Shown here piece after piece: positions 12,281 to 39,861 of a stretch of 64,000 nucleotides of DNA (position 1 is the first letter of the stretch; every line of letters begins with the position of its first letter). Source of the DNA: Gilvimarinus chinensis DSM 19667 (lineage in GTDB: Bacteria > Pseudomonadota > Gammaproteobacteria > Pseudomonadales > Cellvibrionaceae); the NCBI RefSeq assembly GCF_000377745.1, contig NZ_KB898706.1, forward strand, positions 558,001 through 622,000. Direction: 5' to 3'. Made by a program: the position numbers and the translations under genes. The notes under the pieces are model-generated. The model did no database searches. It had not been told where the DNA came from and saw only the letters and a list, made by a program, of their open reading frames with translations.

Positions 12281-12964
12281 TTAGAGGTTGGGTAGGTTTT
12301 GATGGGTTGCCCATTCGAACTCTGGCTCTGAACTTACCGCTGCAAGGTGTAGATTGGGGGGGCTGTTTTCTCTGGGGGGGAAGTAATGATAATGCCAGTG
12401 CGCAGCACTCATCGAGAGAGGGGCCCTTGGGTGGTTTTTGTGAGCAAAGCTCACTTTGTTTAGCCCTTCAGAAATCCCAGTGCCACGCGCTTTGAAGAAG
12501 GCTTCTTTGAGGGTCCAAAGGCGGTAGAATTCGGTTTCCTGCTGGGCAGTGGAAAGATTTTTTAACTTGGCAATCTCTTGTTCGTGGAAATATTGTTCGG
12601 CAATTTTTAGTAGCGGCCGCTTTTTCTGTACATACTCTATGTCCACGCCCAATGGCCCGCACTGGCTGACCCCTAAGGCAACCCATGGGCCGCTATGGCT
12701 GAGGTTAAAGTGCAAGCCTGATTCATCGTTGGTGAGATAAGGTTTGCCGCTGGCGCTGCGAGCCAGCTTTATCTCCGGTGCGGAGATGTTGAGAGTCTGT
12801 GCCAGTACTGTTCGGCAAAATAATCGGCTAATGATATATCGGTTTTGAGAGTCCAGATGGCGAAACTTTTGTGACGTTTGCTGTTCGGCGGCGCTTAAAT
12901 AAGCGCCCCAAATGGATGGCTCAGGTACTTGAAGCTCATCGCTGTTAATCAGGTGTAGTTTCAT
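12281..12964 (-). CDS. 4'-phosphopantetheinyl transferase (Sfp type)
   Basis: Transfers the phosphopantetheine arm of CoA to the serine of carrier proteins, turning apo-ACPs into holo-ACPs. The 227-residue product has the Sfp-type signatures: FNLSHS at 86-91, GVDIEYV with Mg-binding Asp108 and Glu110, and FYRLWTLKEAFFKARGTG (Trp150, Lys153, Glu154, Lys158). Its ATG lies inside the 3' end of the upstream dehydratase gene (20-base overlap), so the two are co-transcribed. It is the left edge of the pigment cluster and most likely activates the three ACPs encoded there. Confidence 0.93.
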   Translation of the reverse strand: MKLHLINSDELQVPEPSIWGAYLSAAEQQTSQKFRHLDSQNRYIISRLFCRTVLAQTLNISAPEIKLARSASGKPYLTNDESGLHFNLSHSGPWVALGVSQCGPLGVDIEYVQKKRPLLKIAEQYFHEQEIAKLKNLSTAQQETEFYRLWTLKEAFFKARGTGISEGLNKVSFAHKNHPRAPLSMSAAHWHYHYFPPRENSPPNLHLAAVSSEPEFEWATHQNLPNL

Positions 12965-13397
12965 TGTGTGGAGGTGTCAGGCTTGCGGTAAGCTGACCTG
13001 TCAGCAAAATCATCTGTTGGGCGCTGAGTTCAAATTCGCACATGCTGCTGCTGTCGTTGCGCGCTAACAGATGCAGTTTTACCAGCAGGTCATCGGGATA
13101 TGCATCAAGCTTCTCACAGTGAGGGGTTAGCTTCGAGGCGACAGCTACAACCCCCTGGCGTGGCGCCCCCTTGGCCTCTGAGTAAAGCCGGGCGTGGGCG
13201 GCCATTGCCTGGGCAGCGTATTCCACACCACAATACACAGAAAGAAAACCGTCGATACGCAATGGGTTGGCAGTATCTAGATGGGATTTGGTGCGGCATA
13301 AGATTTTGGTCGCATCGTGCGCAATGATAGAGTCCAGCAGCACCATCGGTGGTTTATGGGGCAGTAAATGGTCCAGCCCTTGACGTTGATCGCTCAT
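12945..13397 (-). CDS. Hotdog-fold 3-hydroxyacyl-ACP dehydratase (ApeP-like)
   Basis: A 150-residue FabA/FabZ-like hotdog protein. The N-terminal motif HLLPHKPPMVLLDSI corresponds to the HRPPxxLVD element of this group, and YCGVEYAAQAMAAHA carries the conserved Glu of the central helix. In aryl polyene systems such proteins pair with a second short hotdog subunit to dehydrate 3-hydroxyacyl-ACP. The divergently transcribed gene at 13445 is a candidate partner. I start it at the ATG at 13397 because this gives the family N terminus. A GTG at 13439 is possible but has no better ribosome-binding site. Confidence 0.8.
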   Translation of the reverse strand: MSDQRQGLDHLLPHKPPMVLLDSIIAHDATKILCRTKSHLDTANPLRIDGFLSVYCGVEYAAQAMAAHARLYSEAKGAPRQGVVAVASKLTPHCEKLDAYPDDLLVKLHLLARNDSSSMCEFELSAQQMILLTGQLTASLTPPHNETTPD

Positions 13398-13444
13398 GAA
13401 GTGGTATAACGCGGTAATGTGAAAACAGGAGAATATCACAAGTC

Positions 13445-13732
13445 ATGTCCGAACAGTTTAGAGTTAGCTCTGAGGCCTCTTGTGTCAAAGGGCACTTTCC
13501 AGGTCAGCCTATTGTGCCTGGGGCATACTTACTGGCGAAGGTGCATCAAAGCTTCGCCGCCCGTTTTCCGGGTAAAAAAATGGTGTCGCTGAGAAAGGTT
13601 AAGTTTGTTGCTCCTATAACGCCTGAGGAGGCCGTTTTTATAGTCTGGGACGAGAATGCTTGGCCTGTTTGTAAGGTGCGTTTACAGGTGGCTGGCGTTA
13701 CCTGTTTGCAAGCTACGGTTCAGGCTGCTTGA
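13445..13732 (+). CDS. Short hotdog-fold dehydratase subunit (ApeI-like)
   Basis: A 95-residue protein with the FabA/FabZ-type motif GHFPGQPIVPGAYLLA around residues 17-32, where the GHFPxxPxxPG element holds the catalytic-region His. It is shorter than housekeeping FabZ and resembles the ApeI subunit of aryl polyene dehydratases. It is divergent from the ApeP-like gene 47 bases away, so both may share a regulatory region. Its last 20 bases overlap the tail of the convergent DUF2141 gene. Confidence 0.78.
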   Translation: MSEQFRVSSEASCVKGHFPGQPIVPGAYLLAKVHQSFAARFPGKKMVSLRKVKFVAPITPEEAVFIVWDENAWPVCKVRLQVAGVTCLQATVQAA

Positions 13733-14189
13733 CGGTATCTTCATTAGCTTGAGGGTATTGCAGTTGAAGGCTGATAGCGGGTGAATCAGCATTAAGAGTG
13801 GCGACAGATTTGGTAAAACGAAAGCTCGGCTTGTTACGGCGGTCTCCTAAACTGAAGCCGAAAGGTTCGACGGGTGTACGTTGGTTTTTACGGTCTAATA
13901 TTTGATTCTCATTTTCGTCGACAAACGCCTTTACGGCGTAGCGCCCAGGCGGTAATGGTAAAGAAAATTCGGCTTCCGTGGTGGATGGCAGGGTAAAAAC
14001 CAGCTTTTGCAGTATAGGGCTTTGCCAACTGTGAGCCTGTTCAGTATAAACGGCGACGTATAGCTTGGCCCCAGGCCGTAAGTTGTCAGTTACCTTTAGT
14101 GTAAATGCGTGTTCCTGAGAGGCGATGCCGATGGCGGGAAGCATCAGACAGCAGAGCGCTCTGAGGCATAAGCGTATTGTGGCTTGCAT
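13713..14189 (-). CDS. DUF2141 family secreted protein
   Basis: A 158-residue protein with a signal peptide (MQATIRLCLRALCCLMLP, cleavage after about residue 23, GIAS). The mature part is a beta-rich DUF2141 domain with the family motif PPGRYAVKAFVDENENQILD. This contains a calcium-loop-like run of Asp and Asn, and an EPFGFS segment follows. DUF2141 proteins often accompany carotenoid or flexirubin-type pigment genes, but their function is not established. I start at the ATG at 14189 because the longer frame would put 22 polar residues before the signal peptide. Confidence 0.75.
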   Translation of the reverse strand: MQATIRLCLRALCCLMLPAIGIASQEHAFTLKVTDNLRPGAKLYVAVYTEQAHSWQSPILQKLVFTLPSTTEAEFSLPLPPGRYAVKAFVDENENQILDRKNQRTPVEPFGFSLGDRRNKPSFRFTKSVATLNADSPAISLQLQYPQANEDTVKQPEP

Positions 14190-14293
14190 GGTCCTAGTTC
14201 TACCTTTCGTGTGGTAATATCCGCACCATTTTGGGGTCAACCTTAACGGTGCCATGACTGCATAGGGCCCCAGTAATAAAACAGGGGCATGGT

Positions 14294-15232
14294 TTGATCA
14301 AGTTAACACGGCGTTCTCGCGTATTAGTTATCCATTACTCACAAAGTGGGCAGTTGGATAGTGTCGCGCACTCGCTGGTGAAGCCATTGTTGAGCTGCAA
14401 CGATATTCAGGTTGATTTTCTTAATCTTCGGCCGCAACAGGACTTCCCTTTTCCCTGGCCCTTGCTCCGCTTTATTAATGCGTTTCCAGAGTCTGCCCAT
14501 CAGATACCGTGCGACTTACAGCTCGATACCAGTGCTTTGGCGGACGATTATGATCTGGTGATTCTTGCGTATCAAGTGTGGTTCCTGGCGCCCTCTATTC
14601 CCATATCGTCTTTTTTACAAACGCCTACGGCCGCGTCATTGCTCAAAGGTAAACCGGTGGTGACAGTAATAGCTTGTCGCAACATGTGGTTACAGGCACA
14701 GGAAAAAGTAAAATCACATCTCACGCGTTGCAATGCCTCGCTGGTCGGGAATGTGGTGTTCGTTGATGGCGTGAGCTCGGCGGCAAGCTTTTTCTCTACG
14801 CCATTGTGGGTGCTTACCGGGCGCAAAGGCCCTCACTGGTTTGGGCTGGTGCCTGCGGCAGGCGTGAAGCAAAGTGCAATTGACGGTGCTGCCCGGTTTG
14901 GAGAAAAGATTGGATTGACCCTGCACAAACAGCAGGCGTTTGATGAGAGCTTGTTTCGCGGCATGGGTGCCGTAAGAGTCAATGAAAAATTTATTGCCAG
15001 TGAAAAGATTGGTGCTCGAAGCTTTCATGTGTGGGGTAAGCTGTTTTTAGCCTGCGGAGCGCCAGAGAGTCTCCTGCGTCAGTTTTTAGCGCTGTTTTAT
15101 ATCGTATTTCTAATTTTAATGATTGTTACCGTTGTTCCGCTTACGGCGTTGATCAAGACGATCCTGAAGCCTTTTACCAAGGCGCGTGTCGCACGGCAAA
15201 AATCCTATTATTCCTGGCCTTCGGGCGAGTGA
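14294..15232 (+). CDS. darA: Dialkylresorcinol condensing enzyme DarA-like
   Basis: A 312-residue protein with a flavodoxin-like N terminus (RVLVIHYSQSGQLDSVA at about 9-25) and a hydrophobic C-terminal segment (about 268-290). This architecture matches the DarA family. With DarB, DarA makes the cyclohexanedione/dialkylresorcinol core in Pseudomonas and in flexirubin producers. The start is TTG at 14294, preceded by AGGGG. The in-frame triplet before it is a stop and no early ATG exists. The next gene is the DarB-like ketosynthase, the known partner. The assignment rests on domain pattern and neighbourhood. Confidence 0.8.
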   Translation: MIKLTRRSRVLVIHYSQSGQLDSVAHSLVKPLLSCNDIQVDFLNLRPQQDFPFPWPLLRFINAFPESAHQIPCDLQLDTSALADDYDLVILAYQVWFLAPSIPISSFLQTPTAASLLKGKPVVTVIACRNMWLQAQEKVKSHLTRCNASLVGNVVFVDGVSSAASFFSTPLWVLTGRKGPHWFGLVPAAGVKQSAIDGAARFGEKIGLTLHKQQAFDESLFRGMGAVRVNEKFIASEKIGARSFHVWGKLFLACGAPESLLRQFLALFYIVFLILMIVTVVPLTALIKTILKPFTKARVARQKSYYSWPSGE

Positions 15233-15245
15233 CCAGAGGGTATGT

Positions 15246-16394
15246 ATGTCCACTAAGCCAGTATTTATTACTCACACCGGATGTTTCCTGCCTAATTTAC
15301 CTGTCGACAACGAGCAGATGGAATCGCTTTTGGGGCAAGTGGCTGACAGGCCATCGCGGTCGCGTCGGTTGGTGTTGCGCAGTAACCAGATAAAGACACG
15401 TTATTACGCTATCGACCCCAGTACGGGACAGTCGAATTACACCAACGCGGAGCTGTGTGCCGAAGCGATTAAAAACGCTCTAGGTAATGAGGTGCCTTTA
15501 GCTGCGGTATCGAGCCTAGCGGCGGCGACAAGTATTGCAGACCAGTTAATGCCTGGGCATGGGGTAATGGTGCATGGCCTTCTAGGCAGTCCACCTTGCG
15601 AGGTGGCCAGCCTCGGAGGAATTTGTGTCAGTGGTATGAGTGCTTTTAAATACGCTTGGTTGAATGTGGCGGCCGGCCTGCATGAAACAGCCGTGGCGGC
15701 TGCTTCTGAGGCCGCTTCTTACAGCATGAGGGCGGCGAATTTTTCGGCCGAAATTTCGACTCGGGTGGCCGCTTTAGAAGCACAGCCGGAGCTCGCCTTT
15801 GAAAAGGACTTTTTGCGTTGGATGCTGTCCGACGGTGCTGGGGCATGCGTACTGCAAAGTCGGCAACCCCAAGCTTTGGCGCTGCGAGTCGAGTGGTTAG
15901 AGTTACTGTCCTACGCCGGTCAAATGCCCACCTGTATGTACGCTGGAGCGCGTAAAGAGCAAGAGGGCAGCCTCACTGGGTGGCAAGCTGTTAGCTCAGA
16001 TACGGCGCAGGCCGAAAGTTTTATGTCGGTGAAGCAGGATGTAAAACTTCTTAACGAAAATATTGTTCGGTATACCGTAGAAGAAGCCCTCGCTTCAGTG
16101 GTTTGTAAGCATGACCTCAAAGCCGAGGATATAGATTATTTTCTGCCCCATTATTCTTCTGACTTTTTTCGCCAACGGCTGGATGCCGGCATGAAGAAGG
16201 TTGGCTTTGTTGTAGATCAGGAGCGGTGGTTTACAAACCTTGCCAGTAAAGGCAATACAGGCTCGGCATCAATATTTATTATGCTGGATGAGCTGTTTCG
16301 CAGTGGTCGTTTACGCAAAGGCGAGAAAATCCTCTGTTATGTTCCAGAAAGTGGACGCTTCTCGGTAGCCTATATGTTATTGCAGGTTGTCTAA
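15246..16394 (+). CDS. darB: KAS III-like ketosynthase DarB
   Basis: A 382-residue thiolase-fold enzyme of the FabH type. The predicted Cys-His-Asn triad is visible: Cys127 in GGICVSGM, His in YFLPHYSSDF and Asn in SKGNTGSASIF. In dialkylresorcinol synthesis DarB condenses a beta-ketoacyl thioester with an enoyl thioester to form the ring precursor. I start it at the ATG at 15246, six to seven bases after AGAGGG, because the frame upstream lies inside darA. The preceding darA and following small gene suggest an operon from darA to the BtrH-like gene. Confidence 0.85.
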   Translation: MSTKPVFITHTGCFLPNLPVDNEQMESLLGQVADRPSRSRRLVLRSNQIKTRYYAIDPSTGQSNYTNAELCAEAIKNALGNEVPLAAVSSLAAATSIADQLMPGHGVMVHGLLGSPPCEVASLGGICVSGMSAFKYAWLNVAAGLHETAVAAASEAASYSMRAANFSAEISTRVAALEAQPELAFEKDFLRWMLSDGAGACVLQSRQPQALALRVEWLELLSYAGQMPTCMYAGARKEQEGSLTGWQAVSSDTAQAESFMSVKQDVKLLNENIVRYTVEEALASVVCKHDLKAEDIDYFLPHYSSDFFRQRLDAGMKKVGFVVDQERWFTNLASKGNTGSASIFIMLDELFRSGRLRKGEKILCYVPESGRFSVAYMLLQVV

Positions 16395-16403
16395 GGGGAA
16401 AGC

Positions 16404-16811
16404 ATGCGCACAGATGATGTACCGCAAGATAACAGCAGTACCTATGCTGGCCACAAAAAGCTGTTGTACGCGCAGAACGAGCAAGGGCATTACCAAAGCG
16501 TTCAAAGTAATGGTTGGCAAGTGGAGGCTGAGGCTACGCTTGATGCCGTTGCATTGTATGAACGTTTGGCACGTGAAGCCTGGCAATTGGTGAAAGCGGG
16601 GGATAAATCACCATTGTATTTTTATATGTACCACAGTCGCATGGATGAAGCGCTGCTGGCTCAGGTGGCAGGGGTGTGGCGCTGGTGTTTACGTCGGCAC
16701 TTTAAGCCGACTGTTTTTGCTCGACTAACACCCAAAATATTAAGCCGCTACGCTCAAGCGATGGATTTATCCGTCGAGCAACTCACTCAGTTACCGGACA
16801 CGCAGCCATGA
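16404..16811 (+). CDS. Uncharacterised protein upstream of BtrH-like gene
   Basis: I do not recognise this 135-residue protein. It has no signal peptide or membrane segment. The middle is helical and rich in Trp, Tyr and Arg (LAREAWQLVKAGDKSPLYFY; VWRWCLRRHFKP). The C-terminal 30 residues (LSRYAQAMDLSVEQLTQL) look like a helical segment such as a helix-turn-helix, but that reading is weak. An AAGGGGA site precedes the ATG, and its stop overlaps the next start (ATGA), so it is translationally coupled to the BtrH-like protein and is probably its partner. Confidence 0.75.
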   Translation: MRTDDVPQDNSSTYAGHKKLLYAQNEQGHYQSVQSNGWQVEAEATLDAVALYERLAREAWQLVKAGDKSPLYFYMYHSRMDEALLAQVAGVWRWCLRRHFKPTVFARLTPKILSRYAQAMDLSVEQLTQLPDTQP

Positions 16812-17800
16812 GTTTTCAACACCGACAGGCAGCACACTGTGAAAGCGGGGTCATTTCTTCCCTGTTGACTCATCACGGTCTCGCAATCTCAGAGCCTATG
16901 GCCTTTGGCCTTGCCAACGCGCTCGCTTTCGCTTATATCCCGGTGGTAAAAATTGGTGGCCAGCCTTTAATTGCGTACCGCCTCCCGCCGAAAGCAATTA
17001 TCAAAGGGCTCTGTCGGCGTCTGGGGGTGGAAGTGCGCTTCCAGAAATTTAAAAGTCCCGTTGAGGGCGCAAACGCGTTAGACGATTTATTAGCCCAGGG
17101 AAAAATGGTGGGCTTACAGACCTCCGTTTATTATTTGCCGTATTTTCCGCAAGAAATGCGCTTTCATTTTAACGCTCACAACCTTTTGGTGTATGGAGAG
17201 CAGTCGGGACAGTACTTAGTCAGTGACCCTGTTTTTGAGCAACCTGTGACTGTCGCGGCCCGGGATTTAAACAAAGCGCGTTTTGTTCGCGGCCCGCTGG
17301 CCCCGAAAGGATTGCTTTATACCGTTGAGTCGGTACCAAAACATATCGACTATGCCCGCATTATTACGCAAGCGATAGGCAAGAACATTAAAGTGATGAC
17401 AGGGGCCCCTTTACCGGTCATTGGTGTTAGAGGTGTTATGCACCTTGCCAAAAAAATAGAAAAGTCCCGTTTAGACGACACACAGCAGCGGCTTTTTTTG
17501 GGGCACATTGTGCGTATGCAAGAAGAAATAGGGACAGGAGGCGCGGGTTTTCGTTTTATCTACGCTTCTTTTTTGCAGGAGGCCGGGGCACTTCTGGAAG
17601 ATGAGACGCTTGGGGAGGCGTCTCAAGCCATGACCGAGGCGGGTGATTTGTGGCGCGATTTTGCTGTGGCTGTAGCGAAAGAGTGCAAGACATCGCTACC
17701 TATTAATAACTCACAGCTTGCCGATCTGTTGCGCCTTACCGCTACGCGCGAGCAACAGGTTTGGCAGTTGTTAACGCAGTGGTATAAGCGCAGGCGTTAA
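16808..17800 (+). CDS. BtrH N-terminal domain protein (candidate acyltransferase)
   Basis: A 330-residue protein with the BtrH_N-type start HCESGVISSLLTHHG (Cys11) and SEPMAFGLANALAFAYIP, then a papain-like continuation with HFNAHNLLVYG (His) and YLVSDPVF (Asp), followed by a helical C-terminal half of DUF4872 type. In butirosin synthesis BtrH moves an acyl chain from an ACP to an amine. By analogy this protein could move the aryl polyene from its ACP to a hydroxyl of the dialkylresorcinol; that is inference. It is the last gene of the dar-like operon and ends four bases into the convergent gene. Confidence 0.75.
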   Translation: MSFQHRQAAHCESGVISSLLTHHGLAISEPMAFGLANALAFAYIPVVKIGGQPLIAYRLPPKAIIKGLCRRLGVEVRFQKFKSPVEGANALDDLLAQGKMVGLQTSVYYLPYFPQEMRFHFNAHNLLVYGEQSGQYLVSDPVFEQPVTVAARDLNKARFVRGPLAPKGLLYTVESVPKHIDYARIITQAIGKNIKVMTGAPLPVIGVRGVMHLAKKIEKSRLDDTQQRLFLGHIVRMQEEIGTGGAGFRFIYASFLQEAGALLEDETLGEASQAMTEAGDLWRDFAVAVAKECKTSLPINNSQLADLLRLTATREQQVWQLLTQWYKRRR

Positions 17801-18651
17801 GGCTTGGCGGGTATGGCTTCCCAGCTGATGGCGCAATAACTAGATCCGCTGCGCGATAAGTGTAAGGCTTTTGTTTGGCCTAATAGGTGATTGAAGGCCG
17901 CTGCTGAAAAACTGCCGTGGGCCGCGGCGTGGGGGACGGGATCATACACAGTGTGATTGCTCTTAGACAGTAAGCGCTGTTCTTTTTCCGTAGGAAAAAA
18001 GCTCAGTTGGGTTGAGTACCCGTTATCCGATAGTGCGGGTAGATCAGTATAGAATGTGGGGGCCGAGAGCTTTCCTAAAGCTTTGTCTGGAGAGCGTGAC
18101 AAGAGCAGCCAGTGTGTTCCTTCCAGCAGCGCAGGCCTGTTAATGGGCGAGCCTAAGCGCTGATGTTGGTGACTTAACGGTAGCACGGCTTCATCAAAGC
18201 AACCCACTAACGCTGTTTCACATTGCCCTGCCTCCAGATCGAGGCAGGCGTGGTTAAGGGCTGTTTCAAACGAGTGTTCTTCAGCGGAACAAACAAGTGC
18301 AGTGCCGGTAAGGTTTAACAGTTGTGTTAAATAAAACCCTGCCGAATTGCCAAGTGTGTTTACAAAATGCAAAGGTTTAGGCAGTTCACGATCCGATTCA
18401 ATGGTCTGCATCACCCTGGCTGAGGTGGCCACAGCGCCTTTGCTGGTGCCTAAATATAGACTGGTGTTATGGGGGAGTGCGCGCGATTTCACGCAGTTGA
18501 GTCCGCCCGCAATACACAGTTGGATATAGCGATCAATACGACGGATTTTCTTTTCGTGCCATTTTTCGATTACAGGCTTTAAGTCCGGCAGGTTTAAGGT
18601 GTCGGGTTCAATACAGTGCAACAGAGAGTAGTGGTCAATGAGGTAGGGCAT
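17797..18651 (-). CDS. Truncated ketosynthase / chain-length-factor-like protein
   Basis: A 284-residue protein with only the N-terminal part of a ketosynthase fold (SLYLGTSKGA near 64, then NTLGNSAGFYLTQLL near 99). A cysteine (Cys121 in ALVCSAEEHSF) sits where ketosynthases have their nucleophile, but the later HGT and GH histidine motifs are absent. It resembles the PF13723-type chain-length factors of aryl polyene clusters and may pair with the full ketosynthase encoded directly upstream on the same strand (one-base TAATG overlap). It could also be a decayed ketosynthase, but the frame is intact and tightly packed. Confidence 0.7.
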   Translation of the reverse strand: MPYLIDHYSLLHCIEPDTLNLPDLKPVIEKWHEKKIRRIDRYIQLCIAGGLNCVKSRALPHNTSLYLGTSKGAVATSARVMQTIESDRELPKPLHFVNTLGNSAGFYLTQLLNLTGTALVCSAEEHSFETALNHACLDLEAGQCETALVGCFDEAVLPLSHQHQRLGSPINRPALLEGTHWLLLSRSPDKALGKLSAPTFYTDLPALSDNGYSTQLSFFPTEKEQRLLSKSNHTVYDPVPHAAAHGSFSAAAFNHLLGQTKALHLSRSGSSYCAISWEAIPAKP

Positions 18652-19799
18652 TAGTTTATCCCCCGGTCTTGCACGATGAGGGCGTTATTGTTGCCGCCAA
18701 AAGCAAAGCAGTTCAGCAAATAATAACCAGGCGTGGCATCCGTGGGGGTGCTGAGTATATTCATGCCCAGTTTGTTATCTACTGGGGTGCCCGGATTGAT
18801 GGGTAGCTTACCTTGTTGCAGGCAGCCCAGCATCAGTGCGGTTTCAATTGCGCCGCAGGCTCCTAAGGTGTGCCCGATGTAAGGCTTGATTACAAATCCT
18901 GGCGGTGGTTTATCAAAGGTCAGATGCATGGCCGCCGCCTCTGCCTCGTCATTAAGAAGCGATGCGGTACCGTGCAGTTTTACGGCCCTAATATCCTCCG
19001 CGCGTAGTCCGCAATTTTGATACGCCGCCTGGATGACTTTGGCCAATTCTGCGCCGCTTGAGTGCGCTGCCGTCAGGCTGTGGTTGTCGGTGCATATCGC
19101 CCCGCCAGTAAGACTCCAGCGCCTTTGTTCGCTCGGTGTATGGCGTTCGTGGCTTAGCAACAAAGCTCCGCAACCGTCACCGAGTATTAAACCGTCGCGA
19201 TGTGGTGCGAAAGAGGCCATAACCCCCGTGGGTGAAATGAGTCCCAGGCCGTAAAAGCCGAGCGCGCTGGTGGCGTTGATGTGCTCGGTGCCGATTACTA
19301 TTGCATGATCAACCTGACCCTGCTTTATAAGGCGGTTGGCGTATAGCAGTGCGTTTGCGCTGGAGGTGCAGGCCGTGGAATAAGTGCTTCTTACAGGGCC
19401 GAGGCCGAGCGAATCTCCCAGCCTTTGCGCTATTTTTCCATAGCCGATAATGGGCATGGCAACCGCACTATCTTTGCCCTGGCTTTCAAGTGCCTGTCGG
19501 TATTGCTGCTCGGAAATATGGACATCGAAAGAGGAGGAGCCAATCAACAAAGCTGTGCGTTTTCGCTCTTGTGCATTCAACGCGCCTTGCTCAATCAGGT
19601 GCTGCACGGTCTCTTTCAGCTCCTCATAAAAATCAGCCTGTCTGGGGGCCGAAAAATATGGCAGCGTGATTTTTTCACACCGTTGTGAAAAGGACACTGA
19701 ACCCGTGTTGGTTTCAGAGCGCAGCAGTCGCGGGACTGCCTCGGCAATATTTTCTCCTAGGGCGCTGCGGGCACTAAAACTGCGGATAATGGCGCTCAT
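18651..19799 (-). CDS. Beta-ketoacyl-ACP synthase (FabF/KAS II type)
   Basis: A 382-residue condensing enzyme with the full catalytic set: Cys144 in STACTSSANAL, His in KLHGTASLLNDEAE and His in YIGHTLGACGA, plus the C-terminal FAFGGNNNALIV. It extends an acyl chain on ACP by two carbons. Its start overlaps the stop of the ACP gene (ATGA) and its stop overlaps the chain-length-factor-like gene, giving a tight ACP-KS-CLF set on the minus strand. With the dar-like genes next door it may build resorcinol chains rather than the polyene. Confidence 0.9.
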   Translation of the reverse strand: MSAIIRSFSARSALGENIAEAVPRLLRSETNTGSVSFSQRCEKITLPYFSAPRQADFYEELKETVQHLIEQGALNAQERKRTALLIGSSSFDVHISEQQYRQALESQGKDSAVAMPIIGYGKIAQRLGDSLGLGPVRSTYSTACTSSANALLYANRLIKQGQVDHAIVIGTEHINATSALGFYGLGLISPTGVMASFAPHRDGLILGDGCGALLLSHERHTPSEQRRWSLTGGAICTDNHSLTAAHSSGAELAKVIQAAYQNCGLRAEDIRAVKLHGTASLLNDEAEAAAMHLTFDKPPPGFVIKPYIGHTLGACGAIETALMLGCLQQGKLPINPGTPVDNKLGMNILSTPTDATPGYYLLNCFAFGGNNNALIVQDRGIN

Positions 19800-20068
19800 T
19801 GGGTTGACTGTTGGGCGATGGTGTTGGCCAGAGTGTTGATGCTTTTTAATGCCCGTTGGGCCGCCGTGTTGCCTTCAATGCGCACGCCATATTGGTTTTT
19901 TACCGCCATGCATATTTGCAGTACGTCGAGGGAGTCCAGTTCCAGTTTGCCCCGCAGCAGCGGTGCATCATCGTCAATATCCTCAACGGTAAACTCGTCT
20001 TTGTCGCACTCTTCAATGATCAATTGTTTTAATGCTGTTTTTAATTCAGTGGTAACCGTTTGAGGCAT
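19796..20068 (-). CDS. Acyl carrier protein
   Basis: A 90-residue ACP with the phosphopantetheine attachment serine in KLELDSLDVLQ (Ser46) and an acidic helix before it (DKDEFTVEDIDDDAP). Its 5' end overlaps the ABC permease gene by 23 bases, and its 3' end overlaps the ketosynthase start. It belongs to the five-gene minus-strand operon 22129-17797 and probably serves the ketosynthase encoded next to it. Confidence 0.9.
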   Translation of the reverse strand: MPQTVTTELKTALKQLIIEECDKDEFTVEDIDDDAPLLRGKLELDSLDVLQICMAVKNQYGVRIEGNTAAQRALKSINTLANTIAQQSTQ

Positions 20069-22129: not shown

Positions 22130-22265
22130 GAGGATCTTCGTGGGAAAAGCGGCAACTATACTGTTTTTGGCTGCATTTTCCGAGGATTATGGGGTTAATT
22201 TGTCACTGTTTCTGGATACAAGGTCGTGTAAAATGGCGCACCTATTTGATTAGGCGTGTGGAAAA

Positions 22266-24025: not shown

Positions 24026-24046
24026 GCCTGAGAATATAGAATTACC

Positions 24047-28253: not shown

Positions 28254-28259
28254 TCCGCA

Positions 28260-30240: not shown

Positions 30241-30241
30241 T

Positions 30242-33228: not shown

Positions 33229-33244
33229 TAAGTGGGGATGTTTT

Positions 33245-34507
33245 ATGGCGGATAAGCCAGAGCTGGCCGTGGTGCCGAACAAAGCCGAGGTGGTTGTGAT
33301 TGGCGCGGGGCCCTCGGGGGCTATTGCTTCAGCGTTACTGCACCGTGCTGGTGTGGATGTTGTGGTGTTGGAGCGCGATCGTTTTCCGCGTTTTTCAATC
33401 GGAGAAAGCCTGTTGCCTCAGTGCATGGAGTACATTGAAGAAGCCGGTTTTTTACCAGCGCTGCGCGCGGCGGGCTTTCAGTATAAGAACGGTGCCGCGT
33501 TCGCATGGGGTGAGCGTAAAACTTACTTTAATTTTGAAGAAAAATTCTCACCGGGGCCAGGTACTACATTTCAGGTAGAGCGTGCCCGGTTTGATCAGCT
33601 GCTGGCAGAGCAGGCCGAATTGCAAGGTGTGCCAATCGCCTATCAGCACAGTGTAACCAGCTACACTGAAACAGCAGATGGCGTAAGACTGGGGTATAGC
33701 GACAGCGACAGTAACAGTGGTTCGATTGAGTGTCGTTTTGTACTGGATGCCAGCGGCTTTGGGCGGGTGTTACCTCGACTGCTAGGCCTGGAGTCACCTT
33801 CAGATTTTCCTGTGCGCCAGGCGGCCTTTACCCACATAGACGATGGTATCCGTGATGTTTCGTTTGATCGCAATAAAATTCTAATTACGGTACATCCTGA
33901 AGAGCGGGACATCTGGTATTGGTTAATTCCTTTTGCGAATGGAAAAAGCTCATTAGGCGTTGTAGCCAGTGCCGAAAAACTCGCCCAGCGAGGGGCGAGT
34001 TCACCCCTTGAATTGCTGCAAACCATGGTCAGAGAAGCTCCGTCACTGGCCGAGACGCTCAGCGCCGCACAGTGGAACTGCCCTGCAAATCAATTAACGG
34101 GTTACTCATGTAACGTCAAACATTTAGCGAGCAATCGATACGCCCTCTTGGGCAACGCGGGGGAGTTTCTCGATCCGGTTTTCTCATCCGGGGTAACCAT
34201 AGCAATGCGTTCAGCCAGCATGGCGGTGCGGGTACTTTTGCGTCAATTAGCCGGAGAGTCTGTCGATTGGCAGGCGCAGTATGAGCGACCTTTACGCCAA
34301 GGCGTGGCCACGTTTCGTGTGTTTGTGGATGCCTGGTACGACGGATTGTTTCAAGACATTATATTTTATCCCGATCAGGCGGAGAACTTGCGAGAAATGA
34401 TCTCTTCCATATTGGCGGGCTATGCCTGGGATAGCGACAACCCTTTTGTTGCGCAACCTAAGCGTCGCATGAATACCTTGGCACAGTATTGTTCCTCGGT
34501 GACCTGA
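33245..34507 (+). CDS. FAD-dependent halogenase-like oxidoreductase
   Basis: A 420-residue flavoprotein with the Rossmann motif VVVIGAGPSGAIAS (Gly20-Gly25). It also has features of flavin-dependent halogenases: Lys81 in GFQYKNGAAF, aligned by eye with the catalytic Lys79 of tryptophan halogenases, the WxWxIP fingerprint as WYWLIP (224-229), and FLDPVFSSG (308-316) fitting Fx.Px.Sx.G. It may chlorinate or brominate the aryl head, as in xanthomonadins and flexirubins. A non-halogenating monooxygenase or reductase of the same fold remains possible. I start at the ATG at 33245, which has GGGGA eight bases upstream. Confidence 0.82.
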   Translation: MADKPELAVVPNKAEVVVIGAGPSGAIASALLHRAGVDVVVLERDRFPRFSIGESLLPQCMEYIEEAGFLPALRAAGFQYKNGAAFAWGERKTYFNFEEKFSPGPGTTFQVERARFDQLLAEQAELQGVPIAYQHSVTSYTETADGVRLGYSDSDSNSGSIECRFVLDASGFGRVLPRLLGLESPSDFPVRQAAFTHIDDGIRDVSFDRNKILITVHPEERDIWYWLIPFANGKSSLGVVASAEKLAQRGASSPLELLQTMVREAPSLAETLSAAQWNCPANQLTGYSCNVKHLASNRYALLGNAGEFLDPVFSSGVTIAMRSASMAVRVLLRQLAGESVDWQAQYERPLRQGVATFRVFVDAWYDGLFQDIIFYPDQAENLREMISSILAGYAWDSDNPFVAQPKRRMNTLAQYCSSVT

Positions 34508-35043
34508 TGAAAGTACGTTATTGGCTGTTTGTTCTTAGCGTATTGGTCGCGAGCGGCTGTGCTCGTCAGGTAATGGTTCCTACCGGCGCACATTGTCCTG
34601 AGCTTTACAGCGCAACCGCCTTTCTCACACTTCGTCAGCACGATTCCCCTGTGCGCCTGCTACTGCGTGCAGAGCGCACAGACGAAGGCTTTACCTTTGT
34701 TGCCCTAGATACTTTAGGTGCTCCTCTTTTTGTGGCCCGAACTGCGGGGGGAGAGGCGCAGGAGTGGCAAATAGAGGTGAACAAACTGTACCGCGGCCCT
34801 GCTGCCAGTGAACTGATTGAAGCGTATAGCTGGTGGCAAAGGCGAGCCGCATTAACGGCTGCCTGTGCGATGGCCGCTGGTTTTCAGTTGACAGAAAATA
34901 GTGAACGCGCAGTGCTTTTCAGAGGTAAAAAACCTTGGTGGCAATGGCAAAAGTCTGAACCTATGCAGTACCAGTATGGCGGCATCTCGGTAACCATTAA
35001 TGAAACACAAACTGCTCACCCACAAGACGAGGCCGCACCGTGA
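34507..35043 (+). CDS. DUF3261 family outer-membrane lipoprotein
   Basis: A 178-residue lipoprotein: the signal segment WLFVLSVLVASGC ends in a lipobox with the lipidated Cys18. The mature part is a small beta-rich domain (FTFVALDTLGAPLFVART; VNKLYRGPAASELIEAYSWW), the DUF3261 pattern common in aryl polyene clusters, perhaps receiving the pigment at the outer membrane. I start it at the ATG at 34507, which overlaps the previous stop (TGATG) and sits right before the signal peptide. It ends with a GTGA overlap into the next ketosynthase. Confidence 0.8.
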   Translation: MKVRYWLFVLSVLVASGCARQVMVPTGAHCPELYSATAFLTLRQHDSPVRLLLRAERTDEGFTFVALDTLGAPLFVARTAGGEAQEWQIEVNKLYRGPAASELIEAYSWWQRRAALTAACAMAAGFQLTENSERAVLFRGKKPWWQWQKSEPMQYQYGGISVTINETQTAHPQDEAAP

Positions 35044-36218
35044 AATTTTATTTAACCGATATGGGGCTGGTAAATGGCTTAGGGGAAGGGAAGGCGGGAG
35101 TGAGTAAAGCTCTCTTCGCGGGTGCGAGGGCCTTTCAACCCTGCGACTGGGTGGCTGATAAACCGACTTACGTATCAGCTGTTACCGCCAGCTTACCCGA
35201 ACTGCCCTCTGAACTCGCAGAGTTTAACAGTCGCAACGCTCGCTTGGCTTACAGCGCCATTAGCCAGCTGCAAAACACGTTGGCGCAGGTGAGGGCGCGC
35301 TACGCACCGTCACGTATTGCCGTAGTAGCGGGTACCAGTACGTCGGGTATCGCGGAGGGCGAGGCCGCTGTGGCCGCGCATACTAAAGGTGAACCTATTC
35401 CTGCAGATTACCATTATCACGCTCAGGAGATTGGCAACTTGGGGCCGTTGGTGGCTCAATTGTGTGGCGCTGAGGGGCCTGCTTATACCTTGTCGACAGC
35501 CTGCTCCTCCAGTGCACATGCGCTGGCCTCGGCGCGGCGATTATTGGCGGCGAATATGGCTGATGCGGTCATTGCCGGTGGTTCAGACAGCTTATGCCGA
35601 CTGACGGTGAACGGCTTTGCCGCCTTGGATTCCGTCAGTTCGGGTGTATGCAGCCCGTTCAGTGAGGGGCGCGACGGTATTAATATCGGCGAGGCGGCGG
35701 CGTTTTTTCTGGTAACGCGAGAGCCCATCCTGCACCGGGTGGAGTTACTGGGTGTGGGGGCCTCGTCCGACGCCTATCATATTTCCGCGCCCGACCCGCA
35801 GGGAAAAGGCGCAGAGGCCGCAATCCGTATGGCTTTGCAGCAGGCCAACCTCGAGCCCTGTGCGGTAGATTATGTGAATTTACATGGCACAGGCACACCG
35901 TTAAACGATGCCATGGAAGCGGGGATTATTGATCGCTTATTTCCCCATCGCCCCTGGTGTAGCAGTAGCAAGGGCCAATTGGGGCATACCTTGGGTGCCG
36001 CAGGTGCCACCGAGGCTGCTTTGATCTGGCTGGCGCTGACGAATGGCGATGGTAAACTGCCCCCCCATTGTTTTGATGGTCATTACGATCCGTCGTTACC
36101 GAGCTTAAACCTGGTGCCGACGGGCGGGAAGGCTGAACCGGGTGCACAAGTGTGCCTGAGTAATTCATTTGCTTTTGGCGGTAATAATGCCGCCGTGATT
36201 TTACATGCTGGACATTGA
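35040..36218 (+). CDS. Beta-ketoacyl-ACP synthase
   Basis: A 392-residue KAS I/II-type enzyme with Cys155 in LSTACSSSAHAL, His in NLHGTGTPLND and His in GQLGHTLGAAGATEA, then FAFGGNNAAVIL near the end. All catalytic residues are present. The start is GTG at 35040 (GTGA overlap with the lipoprotein stop). It is more divergent from the two ketosynthases at the end of the operon than they are from each other, so it probably catalyses a different step, for example the first extension of the aryl starter (ApeR/ApeO-like). Confidence 0.92.
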   Translation: MKFYLTDMGLVNGLGEGKAGVSKALFAGARAFQPCDWVADKPTYVSAVTASLPELPSELAEFNSRNARLAYSAISQLQNTLAQVRARYAPSRIAVVAGTSTSGIAEGEAAVAAHTKGEPIPADYHYHAQEIGNLGPLVAQLCGAEGPAYTLSTACSSSAHALASARRLLAANMADAVIAGGSDSLCRLTVNGFAALDSVSSGVCSPFSEGRDGINIGEAAAFFLVTREPILHRVELLGVGASSDAYHISAPDPQGKGAEAAIRMALQQANLEPCAVDYVNLHGTGTPLNDAMEAGIIDRLFPHRPWCSSSKGQLGHTLGAAGATEAALIWLALTNGDGKLPPHCFDGHYDPSLPSLNLVPTGGKAEPGAQVCLSNSFAFGGNNAAVILHAGH

Positions 36219-36681
36219 ACGTTATATACCTCACCGGCCACCTATGCGGCTGGTGGACAACCTGGTTAGCGAGACACCTCAGCAGGTAGTGACGGCGTTC
36301 TCGGTTGACCGGGATCACGTGTTTTTTGATGCGAGTGTCGCCGGTGTCCCTACCTGGGCTGGCATAGAGTTTATGGCGCAGACTGCTGCGGTTTGGCTGG
36401 GCCTTGCCGATGAAAGAGCCGGTCGCGCTATTGCGCCCGCCTTCTTAATTAGCACTCGGCACTACACGGTAACTCAGCCGGTATTTGCCGTAGGGGAAAG
36501 TTTTCAAGTCGCTGTAGAAGTGGCGCTACAGGAGGAGCAAATCGTGTCGTTTAATGGCAGGGTTTACTCCTCTGATAATGCGAAAGGTTATTTGGCCGAA
36601 GCAGTGTTCTCTGCTTTCCGCCCAGATGATGCCGAAGCGTATTTAGCAGCGAGTGAACCACCGGGTTTGAGCCGGTGGTAA
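36205..36681 (+). CDS. Hotdog-fold 3-hydroxyacyl-ACP dehydratase (ApeP-like)
   Basis: A 158-residue FabA/FabZ-like protein with YIPHRPPMRLVDNLVSE at the N terminus and the central helix TWAGIEFMAQTAAVWLG carrying the conserved Glu and Gln. It should dehydrate 3-hydroxyacyl-ACP during polyene extension together with a short ApeI-like subunit (26224 or 13445). Its ATG lies 14 bases before the ketosynthase stop. It is the second ApeP-like gene of the cluster. Confidence 0.85.
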   Translation: MLDIERYIPHRPPMRLVDNLVSETPQQVVTAFSVDRDHVFFDASVAGVPTWAGIEFMAQTAAVWLGLADERAGRAIAPAFLISTRHYTVTQPVFAVGESFQVAVEVALQEEQIVSFNGRVYSSDNAKGYLAEAVFSAFRPDDAEAYLAASEPPGLSRW

Positions 36682-36695
36682 TACAGGAGAATGTT

Positions 36696-37421
36696 ATGCA
36701 GCGTCGGGTCCTAGTTACCGGCTCAAGTCGCGGTATTGGCCGTGCAATTGCGCTTAACTTGGCGCGTCAGGGTTTTGCCGTCAGTGTGCATTGCCGTGGA
36801 AATGTGGCAAAGGCCGATGAGGTCTGCCGCGAGATCGAAGCCTTGGGCTGCGAAACGGAACGCCTGTGCTTTGATGTAGCTGACCGAGCCGCCACGCGCG
36901 AGGCTTTAGAGCAAAGTGTGGCCAGCCACGGCGCGTTCTATGGTGTCGTCTGTAACGCGGGTATCACCCGGGACAACGCATTCCCAGCCATGAGTGAAGA
37001 GGACTGGGACAGCGTTATTCACACCAATCTAGACGGTTTTTATAACGTCGTTCAGCCTTTGGTTATGCCGATGGTTCAGGCACGTAAAGGCGGGCGTATT
37101 GTGACTTTGTCGTCCATTGCCGGGTTGGCGGGTAATCGTGGCCAGGTTAATTACAGCGCTACCAAGGCGGGACTGATTGGCGCCACCAAAGCCTTGGCAT
37201 TGGAGTTGGCGAAGCGCAAAATCACTGTGAACTGTGTAGCCCCCGGCATTATCGAAACCGATATGATTGACGAGGTGTTTGCGGATGAGGCCAAGAAAAT
37301 GATTCCCTTACGACGCTTCGGCCAGGTGGATGAGGTGGCCAGTTTGGTGGGGTATTTAATGAGTGATCAAGCCGCATACATCACTCGCCAGGTTATCTCG
37401 GTAAACGGTGGAATGCTCTGA
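36696..37421 (+). CDS. 3-ketoacyl-ACP reductase (FabG-like, ApeQ-like)
   Basis: A 241-residue short-chain dehydrogenase that reduces the 3-keto group with NADPH. The cofactor motif is VLVTGSSRGIGRA, then CNAGITRDNAFPAM, the catalytic Ser in TLSSIAGLAGN and the Tyr-Lys pair in YSATKAG. I start it at the ATG at 36696 with AGGAGA just upstream. The GTG at 36675 in the same frame would add seven residues. It is the only ketoreductase in the cluster, so it should serve all extension rounds unless the housekeeping FabG helps. Confidence 0.94.
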   Translation: MQRRVLVTGSSRGIGRAIALNLARQGFAVSVHCRGNVAKADEVCREIEALGCETERLCFDVADRAATREALEQSVASHGAFYGVVCNAGITRDNAFPAMSEEDWDSVIHTNLDGFYNVVQPLVMPMVQARKGGRIVTLSSIAGLAGNRGQVNYSATKAGLIGATKALALELAKRKITVNCVAPGIIETDMIDEVFADEAKKMIPLRRFGQVDEVASLVGYLMSDQAAYITRQVISVNGGML

Positions 37422-38638
37422 TGCGTCGGGTGGTTATTACCGGAGTGGGTGCTGTCAGTTCACTGGGTAACACCTGGGCTGAGGTTGAGGCGAGCTTGCG
37501 TGCCGGCAAAAATAAAGTGCGCGTGTTTGAGGCATGGAACGAGATTGAAGGCCTTAATACGCGTTTAGGGGCGCCGGCCGACTTTATCGCTCCCAACTAC
37601 CCGCGCAAAAAATTGCGCAGTATGGGCCGGGTGTCGGTGATGTCGGTTTACGCCACCGAGCGCGCATTGGCTCAGGCAGGCCTAAGCGACGATGCGTGCC
37701 TAACCGACGGTTCAACCGGTGTGTCCTACGGCTCGTGCATTGGTACGCCGGGGGATGTGCCTGCGCTCAGTAAGGTGGTCACAGATAAAACCACCGTTGA
37801 TCTCACGGCGTCTACTTACTTGCGTACCATGACCCACACCGCCACGGTGAATATCGGGATGTTTTTCGGTATGACTGGACGCATTATTCCCACCGCCTCC
37901 GCGTGTACATCGGGCAGCCAGGGTATCGGCTACGCGTATGAAGCCATCAAGTATGGTTTGCAGAATGTGATGGTGGCTGGTGGCGCTGAAGAATTTCACG
38001 TAACCCCCATCGCCGTGTTTGACACGCTATTTGCCACCAGTACCCGCAATGATTCGCCCGAGCTGACACCACGGCCGTTTGATAAAGAACGCGATGGTTT
38101 GGTGATTGGTGAAGGGGCGTGCTCTTTGATTCTGGAAGAGTACGAACACGCACGGGCACGCGGCGCCAATATTCTGGGTGAAGTCGTCGGCTATGGCACC
38201 AACTCAGATGGCGCACATGTGACTGAGCCCAAAGCTGAAACCATGGCGCGCGCCATGCAACTTGCGCTGGATGATGCGGGCCTGGACGCCGCCGCGATTG
38301 ATTACGTCAATGCTCATGGCACCGCTACCGCCAAGGGCGATATCGCCGAAACCCGGGCGACGGAAAATACGGTTGGTAAGGACAAACCCTTTAGTTCGTT
38401 AAAAAGTTACATCGGCCACACCCTCGGTGCCTGCGGTGCATTGGAGGCGTGGATGACTTTGGAAATGATGCGCAGCGGATGGTTTGCTCCGACCATTAAC
38501 CTGCAAAATCCCGATCCCGAATGCGGTGCCTTGGATTACTTGATGGGCAGCGGACGGGAGTTGGATGCCGAGTACGCCATGAGCAATAACTTTGCCTTTG
38601 GTGGCGTGAATACCTCACTGATTATCAAACGCTTATGA
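37421..38638 (+). CDS. Beta-ketoacyl-ACP synthase (FabF-like)
   Basis: A 405-residue KAS II-type enzyme with Cys162 in TASACTSGSQGIGY, His in NAHGTATAKGDIAE and His in YIGHTLGACGALEA. It starts on the last base of the ketoreductase stop (TGATG). It is closely similar to the next gene throughout (shared YPRKK(L/I)RSMGRVS and GEGA(C/A)SL(I/V)LE segments), so the two are tandem paralogues. They may form a heterodimer or act at different chain lengths. Confidence 0.94.
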   Translation: MRRVVITGVGAVSSLGNTWAEVEASLRAGKNKVRVFEAWNEIEGLNTRLGAPADFIAPNYPRKKLRSMGRVSVMSVYATERALAQAGLSDDACLTDGSTGVSYGSCIGTPGDVPALSKVVTDKTTVDLTASTYLRTMTHTATVNIGMFFGMTGRIIPTASACTSGSQGIGYAYEAIKYGLQNVMVAGGAEEFHVTPIAVFDTLFATSTRNDSPELTPRPFDKERDGLVIGEGACSLILEEYEHARARGANILGEVVGYGTNSDGAHVTEPKAETMARAMQLALDDAGLDAAAIDYVNAHGTATAKGDIAETRATENTVGKDKPFSSLKSYIGHTLGACGALEAWMTLEMMRSGWFAPTINLQNPDPECGALDYLMGSGRELDAEYAMSNNFAFGGVNTSLIIKRL

Positions 38639-39861
38639 GGCGCGTGGTGGTGACTGGCCTGGGGGCCGTGACTGCCCTGGGTAATAGCTGGCCCGAGTTT
38701 CGACGCGCTTTAGAATCTGGCACCAGTGGTATTCGCCTGATGCCGGAATGGGCCGACTACACGGGTTTAAACACTCAGGTTGCCGGGCCGGTCGATCACT
38801 TTGTTATGCCGACGGATTACCCGCGTAAAAAAATCCGCAGTATGGGGCGGGTGTCGCAATTGGCCGCCGTTGCCAGCGCGTCCGCTCTGGAGCAGGCGGG
38901 TTTGACGCAAAGTTCGCTGCGCCACAGCGGTCGAATGGGGCTGGCGTATGGTTCGTCTACGGGCAGTACCGATGCCATTTGCGAGTTTGCAGCGCGCCTC
39001 AGCGGGCGGGATTTGTCCGGTGTCACGGCTACCAATTACGTGAAAATGATGAGTAACACCACGGCGGTAAATTTAAGCGTGTGTTTTGAAATACAGGGCC
39101 GCACTTACTCTACCTCTACCGCGTGTACGTCGGGCAGCCAGGCCATCGGCTACGCTTTTGAAGCCATCGCCAGTGGCAAGCAAGATATTATGCTGGCCGG
39201 TGGTGCCGAAGAACTCTGCCCATCTGAAGCGGCGGTGTTTGATACCTTTCGCGCGACTAGCCGTAAAAACCACTGCCCACAACAAACCCCCAGCCCCTTT
39301 GACGCCGAGCGAGATGGCTTGGTGATTGGGGAGGGGGCGGCGAGCTTGGTGCTGGAGGATTACGACCACGCCAAGGCGCGTGGCGCACTGATATTCGGTG
39401 AAATAATAGGGTTTGCCACGAACTCCGACGGTGGGCATGTGACCCAGCCAGATTCCAGCAGCATGCAAAAAGCGATGGCACTGGCGCTGGAAGATGCAAG
39501 GATTAATGCCGCCGATGTGGATTATATTAATATGCACGGCACCGCCACCGAGTGGGGCGATATCGCCGAAAGCGAAGCCTGTTTTAAGGTGTATGGTAAT
39601 CCCATGCCGGTGAGCAGTTTAAAGGGGCATCTGGGCCATAGTCTGGGTGCTTGCGGTGCGATTGAAGCCTGGGCCTGCTTGCATATGTTACGCGATCAGG
39701 TGTTAGCCCCAACATTAAATTTGCATCAGCCTGACCCGCGCTGCGCGCCGTTACAGTACTTAAGCGGCTCTTTGCGCGAGCAAAAAATCCACACCATTGT
39801 CAGCAATAACTTTGCTTTTGGCGGGTTGAATACCTCACTCGTTTTTCGCGCCGTCTCTTAA
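38635..39861 (+). CDS. Beta-ketoacyl-ACP synthase (FabF-like)
   Basis: A 408-residue KAS II-type enzyme with Cys164 in STSTACTSGSQAIGY, His in NMHGTATEWGDIAE and His in HLGHSLGACGAIEA. The start overlaps the stop of its paralogue by four bases. It is the last gene of the plus-strand pigment operon. No clear terminator follows in the 124 bases before the porin gene. Both paralogues keep full catalytic sets, so neither is a mere chain-length factor. Confidence 0.94.
   Translation: MRRVVVTGLGAVTALGNSWPEFRRALESGTSGIRLMPEWADYTGLNTQVAGPVDHFVMPTDYPRKKIRSMGRVSQLAAVASASALEQAGLTQSSLRHSGRMGLAYGSSTGSTDAICEFAARLSGRDLSGVTATNYVKMMSNTTAVNLSVCFEIQGRTYSTSTACTSGSQAIGYAFEAIASGKQDIMLAGGAEELCPSEAAVFDTFRATSRKNHCPQQTPSPFDAERDGLVIGEGAASLVLEDYDHAKARGALIFGEIIGFATNSDGGHVTQPDSSSMQKAMALALEDARINAADVDYINMHGTATEWGDIAESEACFKVYGNPMPVSSLKGHLGHSLGACGAIEAWACLHMLRDQVLAPTLNLHQPDPRCAPLQYLSGSLREQKIHTIVSNNFAFGGLNTSLVFRAVS

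Follow-up and report, generated by a model that had tools for sequence, protein, structure and literature searches.

Yellow-orange membrane pigments in which an aryl polyene (APE) acid is combined with a resorcinol are already known from several bacterial groups. The arcuflavin product of Azoarcus sp. BH72 is a hybrid ester, and its genes include darA, darB, darD, the BtrH-like darE, darF and darI for an ABC transporter, darC for an acyl carrier protein (ACP), the ketosynthase (KS) gene darJ and darK, together with APE genes and a 'halogenase' (PMC3949708). Flexirubin clusters of Chitinophaga and Flavobacterium combine DarA and DarB with APE-type genes, an aromatic ammonia-lyase and a 4-coumarate-type ligase (PMC3992019). 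Two gammaproteobacterial examples, compared here by description only, are the E. coli-like APE genes joined to a dialkylresorcinol (DAR) cluster in marine Pseudomonas (PMC10165715) and the hybrid APE-resorcinol cluster of Pseudoalteromonas, which coincides with yellow-orange colonies (PMC9966250). We describe a locus at positions 12281-39861 of a window of 64,000 nucleotides from the 4.07 Mb genome of Gilvimarinus chinensis DSM 19667 (contig NZ_KB898706.1, positions 558,001 to 622,000), which, judged from its sequence, very probably encodes the biosynthesis and export of a hybrid APE-DAR pigment of the outer membrane, which would be a gammaproteobacterial representative of the flexirubin and arcuflavin kind. 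The original prediction, that a full APE gene set and DarA- and DarB-like genes share one locus, stands: its genes are intact open frames within this range, mostly supported by profile matches, and the combination does have precedents in the four papers above. The locus is confirmed as real, intact, conserved and of an already known kind.

The locus consists of a plus-strand APE operon (22266-39861) with the dar locus to its left (12281-22129). In the latter, darA, darB, a DarG-family gene and the BtrH-like gene run forward (14294-17800) and are convergent with a reverse block (17797-22129) that codes for a KS-like protein and a KS, then for an ACP and for the permease and ATPase of an ABC transporter; left of darA lie a DUF2141 gene, two hotdog genes and a 4'-phosphopantetheinyl transferase (PPTase) gene. 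Both the APE and the DAR sets that characterize the hybrid kind are present in the one genome, along with the accessory DarG and DarH. In Azoarcus the arc genes are divided between two unlinked loci, one of which is separated from dar by some 20 genes; here there is a single locus, and the F-I-C-J-K block is in reversed order, judged by locus numbers. A XanB2-type chorismatase (for a 3-hydroxybenzoic acid, 3-HBA, starter), Phd/PilT genes and a methyltransferase are further features of Azoarcus (PMC3949708); here an ammonia-lyase is present, the Phd/PilT pair is missing and the locus shows no methyltransferase. Azoarcus gene names were matched by domain and position, and we note that the lettering of NCBIfam differs, its DarG and DarH corresponding on that basis to Azoarcus darD and darE. 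Profile matches were taken at 1e-3 for Pfam and 0.01 for NCBIfam, and curated cut-offs are given in bits. The dar genes, with the two hotdog genes, are as follows.

14294..15232, plus strand: DarA, DAR aromatase by its published role (pairing with DarB, published order)
15246..16394, plus strand: DarB, KAS III-like DAR-forming ketosynthase (NF005293, 575 bits, above 450; the frame opens at 15186, with an ATG at 15246)
16404..16811, plus strand: DarG-family protein, in the position of Azoarcus darD (NF053536, 176.6 bits, above 70)
16808..17800, plus strand: DarH, BtrH-like acyltransferase, darE in Azoarcus (NF053550, DarH_acyl, 483 bits, above 300; PF14399 and PF16169)
17797..18651, minus strand: DarK, short KS-like protein, chain-length-factor-like partner (284 residues, no active-site Cys)
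18651..19799, minus strand: DarJ, ketosynthase (Cys, HGT and GHT motifs, Cys-His-His, intact)
19796..20068, minus strand: DarC, acyl carrier protein (PF00550, 3.7e-6)
20046..21230, minus strand: ABC-2 permease, darI in Azoarcus (PF12698, PF01061)
21227..22129, minus strand: ABC ATPase, darF in Azoarcus (PF00005, 2.3e-35)
12945..13439, minus strand: DAR-side hotdog dehydratase of ApeP-like type (E 4.5e-21 in hhalign against the ApeP alignment)
13445..13732, plus strand: ApeI-like or FabZ-like hotdog dehydratase, DAR-side copy (95 residues, GHFPG motif; hhalign to ApeI, E 3.9e-20)

The DarB match to NF005293, the StlD/DarB family, lies above the curated cut-off that marks a DAR cluster, and the protein has the Cys, His and Asn motifs. 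The assignment of DarA is probable, from the presence of DarB in all 80 DarA loci described below and from the published gene order; DarA-like proteins with about 30% identity over 94% of the length also occur on three Streptomyces plasmids, and the plasmid-record matches are all Streptomyces entries annotated 'hypothetical protein', with no functional name among them. The BtrH-like gene, first viewed as an addition to the cluster, proves to be a standard dar gene, being darE in Azoarcus and present as DarH in 79 of the 80 dar loci. Its N-terminal HCE motif is found in 16 of 16 sequences. 'BtrH-related acyltransferase' is the name given by NCBIfam, and BtrH itself takes the acyl group that it transfers from a carrier protein; DarH is the best candidate for the ester-forming acyltransferase.

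The APE operon has what defines an APE cluster, namely a KS and chain-length factor (CLF) pair, a second KS, a ketoreductase, two dehydratases, two ACPs and an acyl-ACP synthetase in one operon, and its genes are in the E. coli order from apeC to apeR (C, D, E, F, G, H, I, J, K, L, M, N, O, P, Q, R), common also to the E. coli APE cluster (PMC8253772) and the ApeO-ApeC and ApeR system of A. baumannii (PMC8358021). Compared with the E. coli cluster, the locus is without apeA and apeB (no match to apeA or to the methyltransferase apeB among the genes scanned in it), ApeJ is split into two genes, and there are extra genes: the dar genes and three operon insertions, which are the ammonia-lyase, a halogenase-like flavoenzyme and a second ApeR-like KS. 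Compared with flexirubin clusters (PMC3992019), this E. coli-like order is itself a difference, as are a lyase scoring below the FlxA tyrosine ammonia-lyase model (342 against 700) and a DarG below the flexirubin_DarG model (128.7 against 170). The operon genes are listed here.

22266..23000, plus strand: ApeC chain-length factor (PF13723, 2.9e-53; profile matches 6qsp_B and 7f28_A)
22888..23772, plus strand: ApeD, PlsC-type acyltransferase (PF01553; true start probably downstream)
23765..24025, plus strand: ApeE ACP (PF00550)
24047..24295, plus strand: ApeF ACP (PF00550)
24292..24852, plus strand: ApeG-position membrane protein (by position; no Pfam match, a weak septation-protein match below cut-off)
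24797..26227, plus strand: ApeH acyl-ACP synthetase, AMP ligase (PF00501; best NCBIfam match 4-coumarate-CoA ligase, 115 bits, below 334.7)
26224..26583, plus strand: ApeI dehydratase (PF22818, 50.5 bits, above 28.5)
26549..27331, plus strand: GT2 glycosyltransferase, part of ApeJ function (PF00535)
27267..28253, plus strand: LpxL-type acyltransferase, part of ApeJ function (PF03279)
28260..29810, plus strand: aromatic amino acid ammonia-lyase (PF00221, 1.5e-164)
29803..30240, plus strand: ApeK thioesterase (PF13279)
30242..30892, plus strand: ApeL, LolA-like carrier (NF053544, LolA2_flexi, 36.5 bits, 3e-9, below the cut-off of 125; no Pfam match)
30892..33228, plus strand: ApeM, MMPL/RND exporter (PF03176)
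33212..34507, plus strand: halogenase-like flavoenzyme (PF04820, PF01494)
34489..35043, plus strand: ApeN-position lipoprotein (by position, with a lipobox-like start read by eye)
35040..36218, plus strand: ApeO ketosynthase (PRK09185, 478 bits, above 407)
36205..36681, plus strand: ApeP dehydratase (PF22817, 38.9 bits, above 27)
36675..37421, plus strand: ApeQ ketoreductase (PF13561, PF00106)
37421..38638, plus strand: ApeR ketosynthase (PRK09116, 659 bits, above 470)
38635..39861, plus strand: second ApeR-like ketosynthase (PRK09116, 617 bits, above 470; inside the ApeR group of the KS tree)

Most of the originally predicted gene list is borne out by profiles: the PPTase, DarB, the BtrH_N and DUF4872 domains, three ACPs (two of them APE ACPs), the ApeC/CLF-type Ketoacyl-synt_2, the KSs, the AMP ligase, ApeI, ApeP, GT2, two acyltransferases, the 4HBT thioesterase, MMPL, the ketoreductase and the halogenase-like flavoenzyme. 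Three members are weaker, since the LolA-like match, on which ApeL is assigned, is below cut-off, and DarA and the supposed DUF3261 lipoprotein are without a library match (for the latter, none in Pfam or NCBIfam); the ApeG and ApeN slots are assigned by position alone. Several features had been missed: the ammonia-lyase (28260-29810), the ABC exporter (20046-22129), the ACP at 19796-20068, the frame at 13445-13732, the hotdog-dehydratase nature of 12945-13439, and DarJ and DarK as diverged APE-type enzymes. The second ApeR-like KS ends the operon, and a homologue follows apeR in the same-genus genomes G001 and G006, other stretches ending earlier or showing none.

We have compared the dar genes in 80 named loci, the best 80 by likeness to the window's DarA among at least 586 relatives confirmed from at least 594 pattern matches; the closest of these are Gilvimarinus species, and the set holds no Bacteroidetes flexirubin loci. 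DarB is present in all 80 (the loci having been picked by DarA) and is the next gene in 77, DarG and DarH are each present in 79, DarJ in 73, an ABC ATPase in 72 (a count that may include unrelated ATPases), the permease in 71 and the ACP in 69, within 10 kb flanks that mostly stop short of the APE operon. DarK was found in 63 loci initially and in 72 by profile, always with DarJ in the same locus, and the profile count was still 72 after a DarJ profile was added as competitor. When the fetched neighbourhoods of 16 relatives were scanned by scripted tBLASTn, the dar block was found in 15 (G098 having only a weak KS-like match), so the locus is more than a chance arrangement. The APE operon is beside the dar block in ten, with some genes undetected (the ApeN-position gene in G013, G092, G045 and G137, and LolA in G045); the neighbourhood of G051 stops at ApeC, and the stretches of G020, G011, G138 and G178 are without APE genes.

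Among 195 related genomes, including that of G. chinensis, DarB is above its cut-off in 20 and DarH in the same 20, and PF13723, the ApeC family, is above cut-off in 85, including all 20 (Fisher's exact p 1.5e-8, a value inflated by shared ancestry; best scores per genome run from 253 down to 59 bits, all above cut-off being counted). This agreement supports one joined product, and the predicted ester of the two halves, first put forward as likely, is well supported by it together with the gene set and the published precedents. The dar and ape genes lie within about 25 kb of each other in 12 of the 20, on different contigs in seven, and about 73 kb apart in G178; some assemblies are fragmented, and different contigs are therefore no proof of distance. 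PF13723 is also present in every one of 31 named dar-bearing genomes, which were selected from the 80. The set of DarB and DarH occurs in six of eight sampled genomes of the genus, and DarH is above cut-off in eight of 299 genomes drawn across the phylum, G. chinensis again included. Two same-genus genomes, G002 and G004, have a PF13723 gene and, at the limits applied, match neither DarB nor DarH, and so offer a natural APE-only contrast.

Some proteins on the DAR side resemble APE enzymes. DarK has the features of an ApeC-type CLF, with a short KS-like fold, no nucleophilic Cys and a conserved Arg pair. The nucleophile position is occupied by a residue other than Cys in nine of nine aligned sequences (Glu in six; alignment read by eye), and a profile-profile match with ApeC has an E value of 8.5e-10. 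Through the ApeC profile, the invariant R37/R38 of DarK align with R30/R31 of A. baumannii ApeC (counted along chain 7f28_A in the alignment, the numbering of the paper being assumed), which are conserved and apparently important for ACP-KS contact (PMC8358021). In a structural comparison with an AlphaFold model of DarK (mean pLDDT 83.9, pTM 0.84, from a thin alignment of nine), the top-scoring chains belong to KS/CLF entries (ishigamide at 23.2, Ant at 22.8 and, at rank 18, actinorhodin at 21.8), with ordinary KSs close by at about 21.5-22. The matched chains are presumably the CLF subunits; ApeC chains are not among the 50 rows shown, which is no evidence against kinship. The best NCBIfam match of DarJ is PRK09185 (183 bits against a cut-off of 407, which the window's ApeO passes), and its best PDB match is FabF 1j3n, with the ApeO chain 6qsp_A second. 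In a 27-row KS tree (unrooted, three DarJ rows being long, and rows labelled by best match among four window KSs), DarJ forms its own clade, with support of 100/100, that includes one Campylobacterota row. On this ground we rejected the idea that DarJ arose by recent duplication of the window's ApeO.

The DAR-side ApeP-like dehydratase has 6qsr_B as its best PDB profile match (9.5e-14), and Pfam ApeP-like is found in 11 of 20 members of its family at E 0.1, the window member, with 0.0013 and 18.8 bits, falling short of the gathering score, 27. In the family of the ApeI-like dehydratase, Pfam FabA-like is found in 17 of 17 members and ApeI-like in 12 of 17 at E 0.1, the window member being below both gathering scores; its PDB matches begin with FabZ entries (4zw0, 9.2e-10), with 6qsr_A fourth (7.2e-9). 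The entry 6qsr is the ApeI-ApeP complex of Xenorhabdus. Both the KS-CLF pair and the dehydratase pair of APE synthesis thus have diverged counterparts beside darA, and DarJ, DarK and these dehydratases may feed DarB. This feeder reading seems little described in the literature we saw; in the arcuflavin paper (PMC3949708) darK and darE are only hypothetical or domain-labelled.

The ammonia-lyase is probably a tyrosine lyase supplying 4-coumarate, a flexirubin-like starter. Its ASG triad is present in 11 of 11 sequences. We considered whether it is a housekeeping HutH and rejected this, as it scores 405 against a cut-off of 539, lies inside the operon, and is the sole match to the HutH model in the genome. 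A XanB2-type chorismatase for 3-HBA supply gave no PF21168 match in the genome, in a search whose control was also silent; the ammonia-lyase is present instead. In the pathway we propose, the lyase would deaminate tyrosine to 4-coumarate, which ApeH would load onto an ACP, and the polyene would be built by ApeO-ApeC, ApeR, ApeQ and ApeI-ApeP, as shown for homologues. DarB would join two fatty-acid-like thioesters and DarA would aromatize the product to the DAR, whose formation has likewise been shown for homologues; the thioesters could be made by DarJ-DarK as a KS/CLF pair working on DarC with the DAR-side dehydratases. DarH would then transfer the acyl group of the polyene to a hydroxyl of the resorcinol, giving the ester, and ApeL, ApeM and ApeN with the ABC pair would bring the product to the outer membrane. 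The combined proposal, that a diverged APE engine (DarJ-DarK, the ApeI/ApeP-like pair and DarC) makes beta-keto and enoyl thioesters that are fused by DarB, with DarH joining the halves, is plausible, and we advance it tentatively, with rather more doubt than confidence.

A number of observations weigh against one or another part of this account. The original prediction counted the absence of a DarA profile match against itself, and here Pfam at 1e-3 and NCBIfam at 0.01 are indeed both matchless for DarA, whether either contains a DarA model not being established; its pairing with DarB in 80 of 80 loci speaks for it. DarB falls below the narrower resorcinol_DarB model (476 against 550). Three genomes, G132, G037 and G186, have DarB-family scores (449.3, 449.1 and 443.8 bits) just below 450 and no DarH above cut-off, so the exact agreement of DarB and DarH depends on the curated cut-off; PF13723 is present in G037 and G186 and absent in G132, and all three are possible makers of free resorcinols or cyclohexanediones. 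Two DarH genomes, G054 and G102, lack a DarK match at E 1e-3, and outside the DarH genomes there are weak DarK matches (E 1e-4 to 1e-3) in G027, G098 and G183. DarK itself does not match PF13723 (PF00109, at 1.9e-6, is its only Pfam match at 1e-3), and the one PDB match of its sequence profile is a FabF at 0.0014, with no ApeC entry; DarK is therefore likened to ApeC and yet placed outside the ApeC family. The ApeI-like dehydratase fits FabZ as well as ApeI, and the DAR-side dehydratases are not universal: of the 80 loci, 52 have the ApeP-like one, 21 have the ApeI-like one and 14 have both, counts that include some loci that supplied profile members. Without the contributing loci the numbers are 43 of 71 and 13 of 72, respectively, which is no clean hold-out because some of the loci are the same genomes under other locus ids. 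Finally, lyase specificity is not predictable from sequence alone, and a ligase-like FlxW, rather than a BtrH-like protein, has been proposed to form the flexirubin ester (both PMC3992019).

The two halves could also yield separate products: a dialkylresorcinol, free or exported, that acts as a signal or antimicrobial and leaves by the ABC pair, and an APE lipid made independently of it. The gene sets would then be neighbours by chance or shared regulation. The DAR side does have its own ABC exporter, and in Pseudomonas a divergent DAR cluster goes with HPR, a dialkylresorcinol known in free form (PMC10165715, PMC6403133). However, an ApeC-family gene accompanies DarB and DarH in all 20 genomes, including eight without shown dar linkage, and in all 31 named genomes, and in Azoarcus DAR was not detected free while the pigment contains it (PMC3949708), and we consider separate products very unlikely. 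A different question is whether a joined pigment is halogenated, with the flavoenzyme at 33212 chlorinating or brominating the aryl ring. In 11 of 11 sequences the putative halogenase carries the motifs of flavin-dependent halogenases, WxWxIP and a catalytic-type Lys aligned to Lys71 of CmlS, and it matches CmlS (3.3e-37) and other halogenases. By far the closest solved protein is 3nix (8.5e-102), titled a flavoprotein/dehydrogenase. Nor does the gene mark a variant, as was at first supposed, because the arcuflavin cluster has its own 'halogenase', arcA, and a halogen-free product, C41H52O4 (PMC3949708). Because the signature residues are intact, halogenation is possible and is not predicted; a halogenated pigment seems unlikely, if by no means far-fetched.

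A further alternative concerns DarJ and DarK, which might form a pair for acyl transfer, the function in the name that NCBIfam gives to AmcF of cispentacin, putting an acyl group onto the DAR or taking it off instead of feeding DarB. DarJ does match the AmcF model, at 140 bits against a cut-off of 325, but PRK09185 scores higher (183 bits, also below its cut-off), DarJ retains Cys-His-His, DarK is ApeC-like and the ACP gene adjoins darJ. We view an acyltransfer role as distinctly unlikely, and prefer DarJ-DarK as the KS-CLF pair that would supply DarB.

Some features lie at the edges of the dar locus and beyond the operon.

12281..12964, minus strand: 4'-phosphopantetheinyl transferase, which activates ACPs (PF01648, 3.5e-21; PF22624)
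13713..14255, minus strand: DUF2141 protein, divergent from darA (PF09912)

The PPTase gene adjoins dar genes in five other same-genus stretches, and a DUF2141 relative is found in 46 of the 80 named dar loci. After the operon comes a gene for a DcaP-like outer membrane protein (39986-41260), in the same position in same-genus G001. A tRNA-Leu (gag) was called by ARAGORN at 11210-11294 and is absent from the Rfam scan at gathering score, in which positions 8000-44000 gave no match.

These results place an intact, single-locus APE-DAR cluster in Gilvimarinus; our literature search found no paper naming 'Gilvimarinus' together with 'aryl polyene'. The new content is modest, and consists of the functions proposed for the KS-CLF and dehydratase genes of the DAR half, giving concrete candidate roles to darK, darE and the two dehydratase-like genes beside darA, and of the close co-occurrence of DarB, DarH and ApeC. 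The agreement between DarB with DarH and APE genes across the 195 genomes suggests that DarH can mark joined pigments as distinct from free resorcinols. If the feeder proposal is true, hybrid pigments of this kind would come from two parallel APE-type synthases, and not from one such synthase plus fatty acid metabolism.

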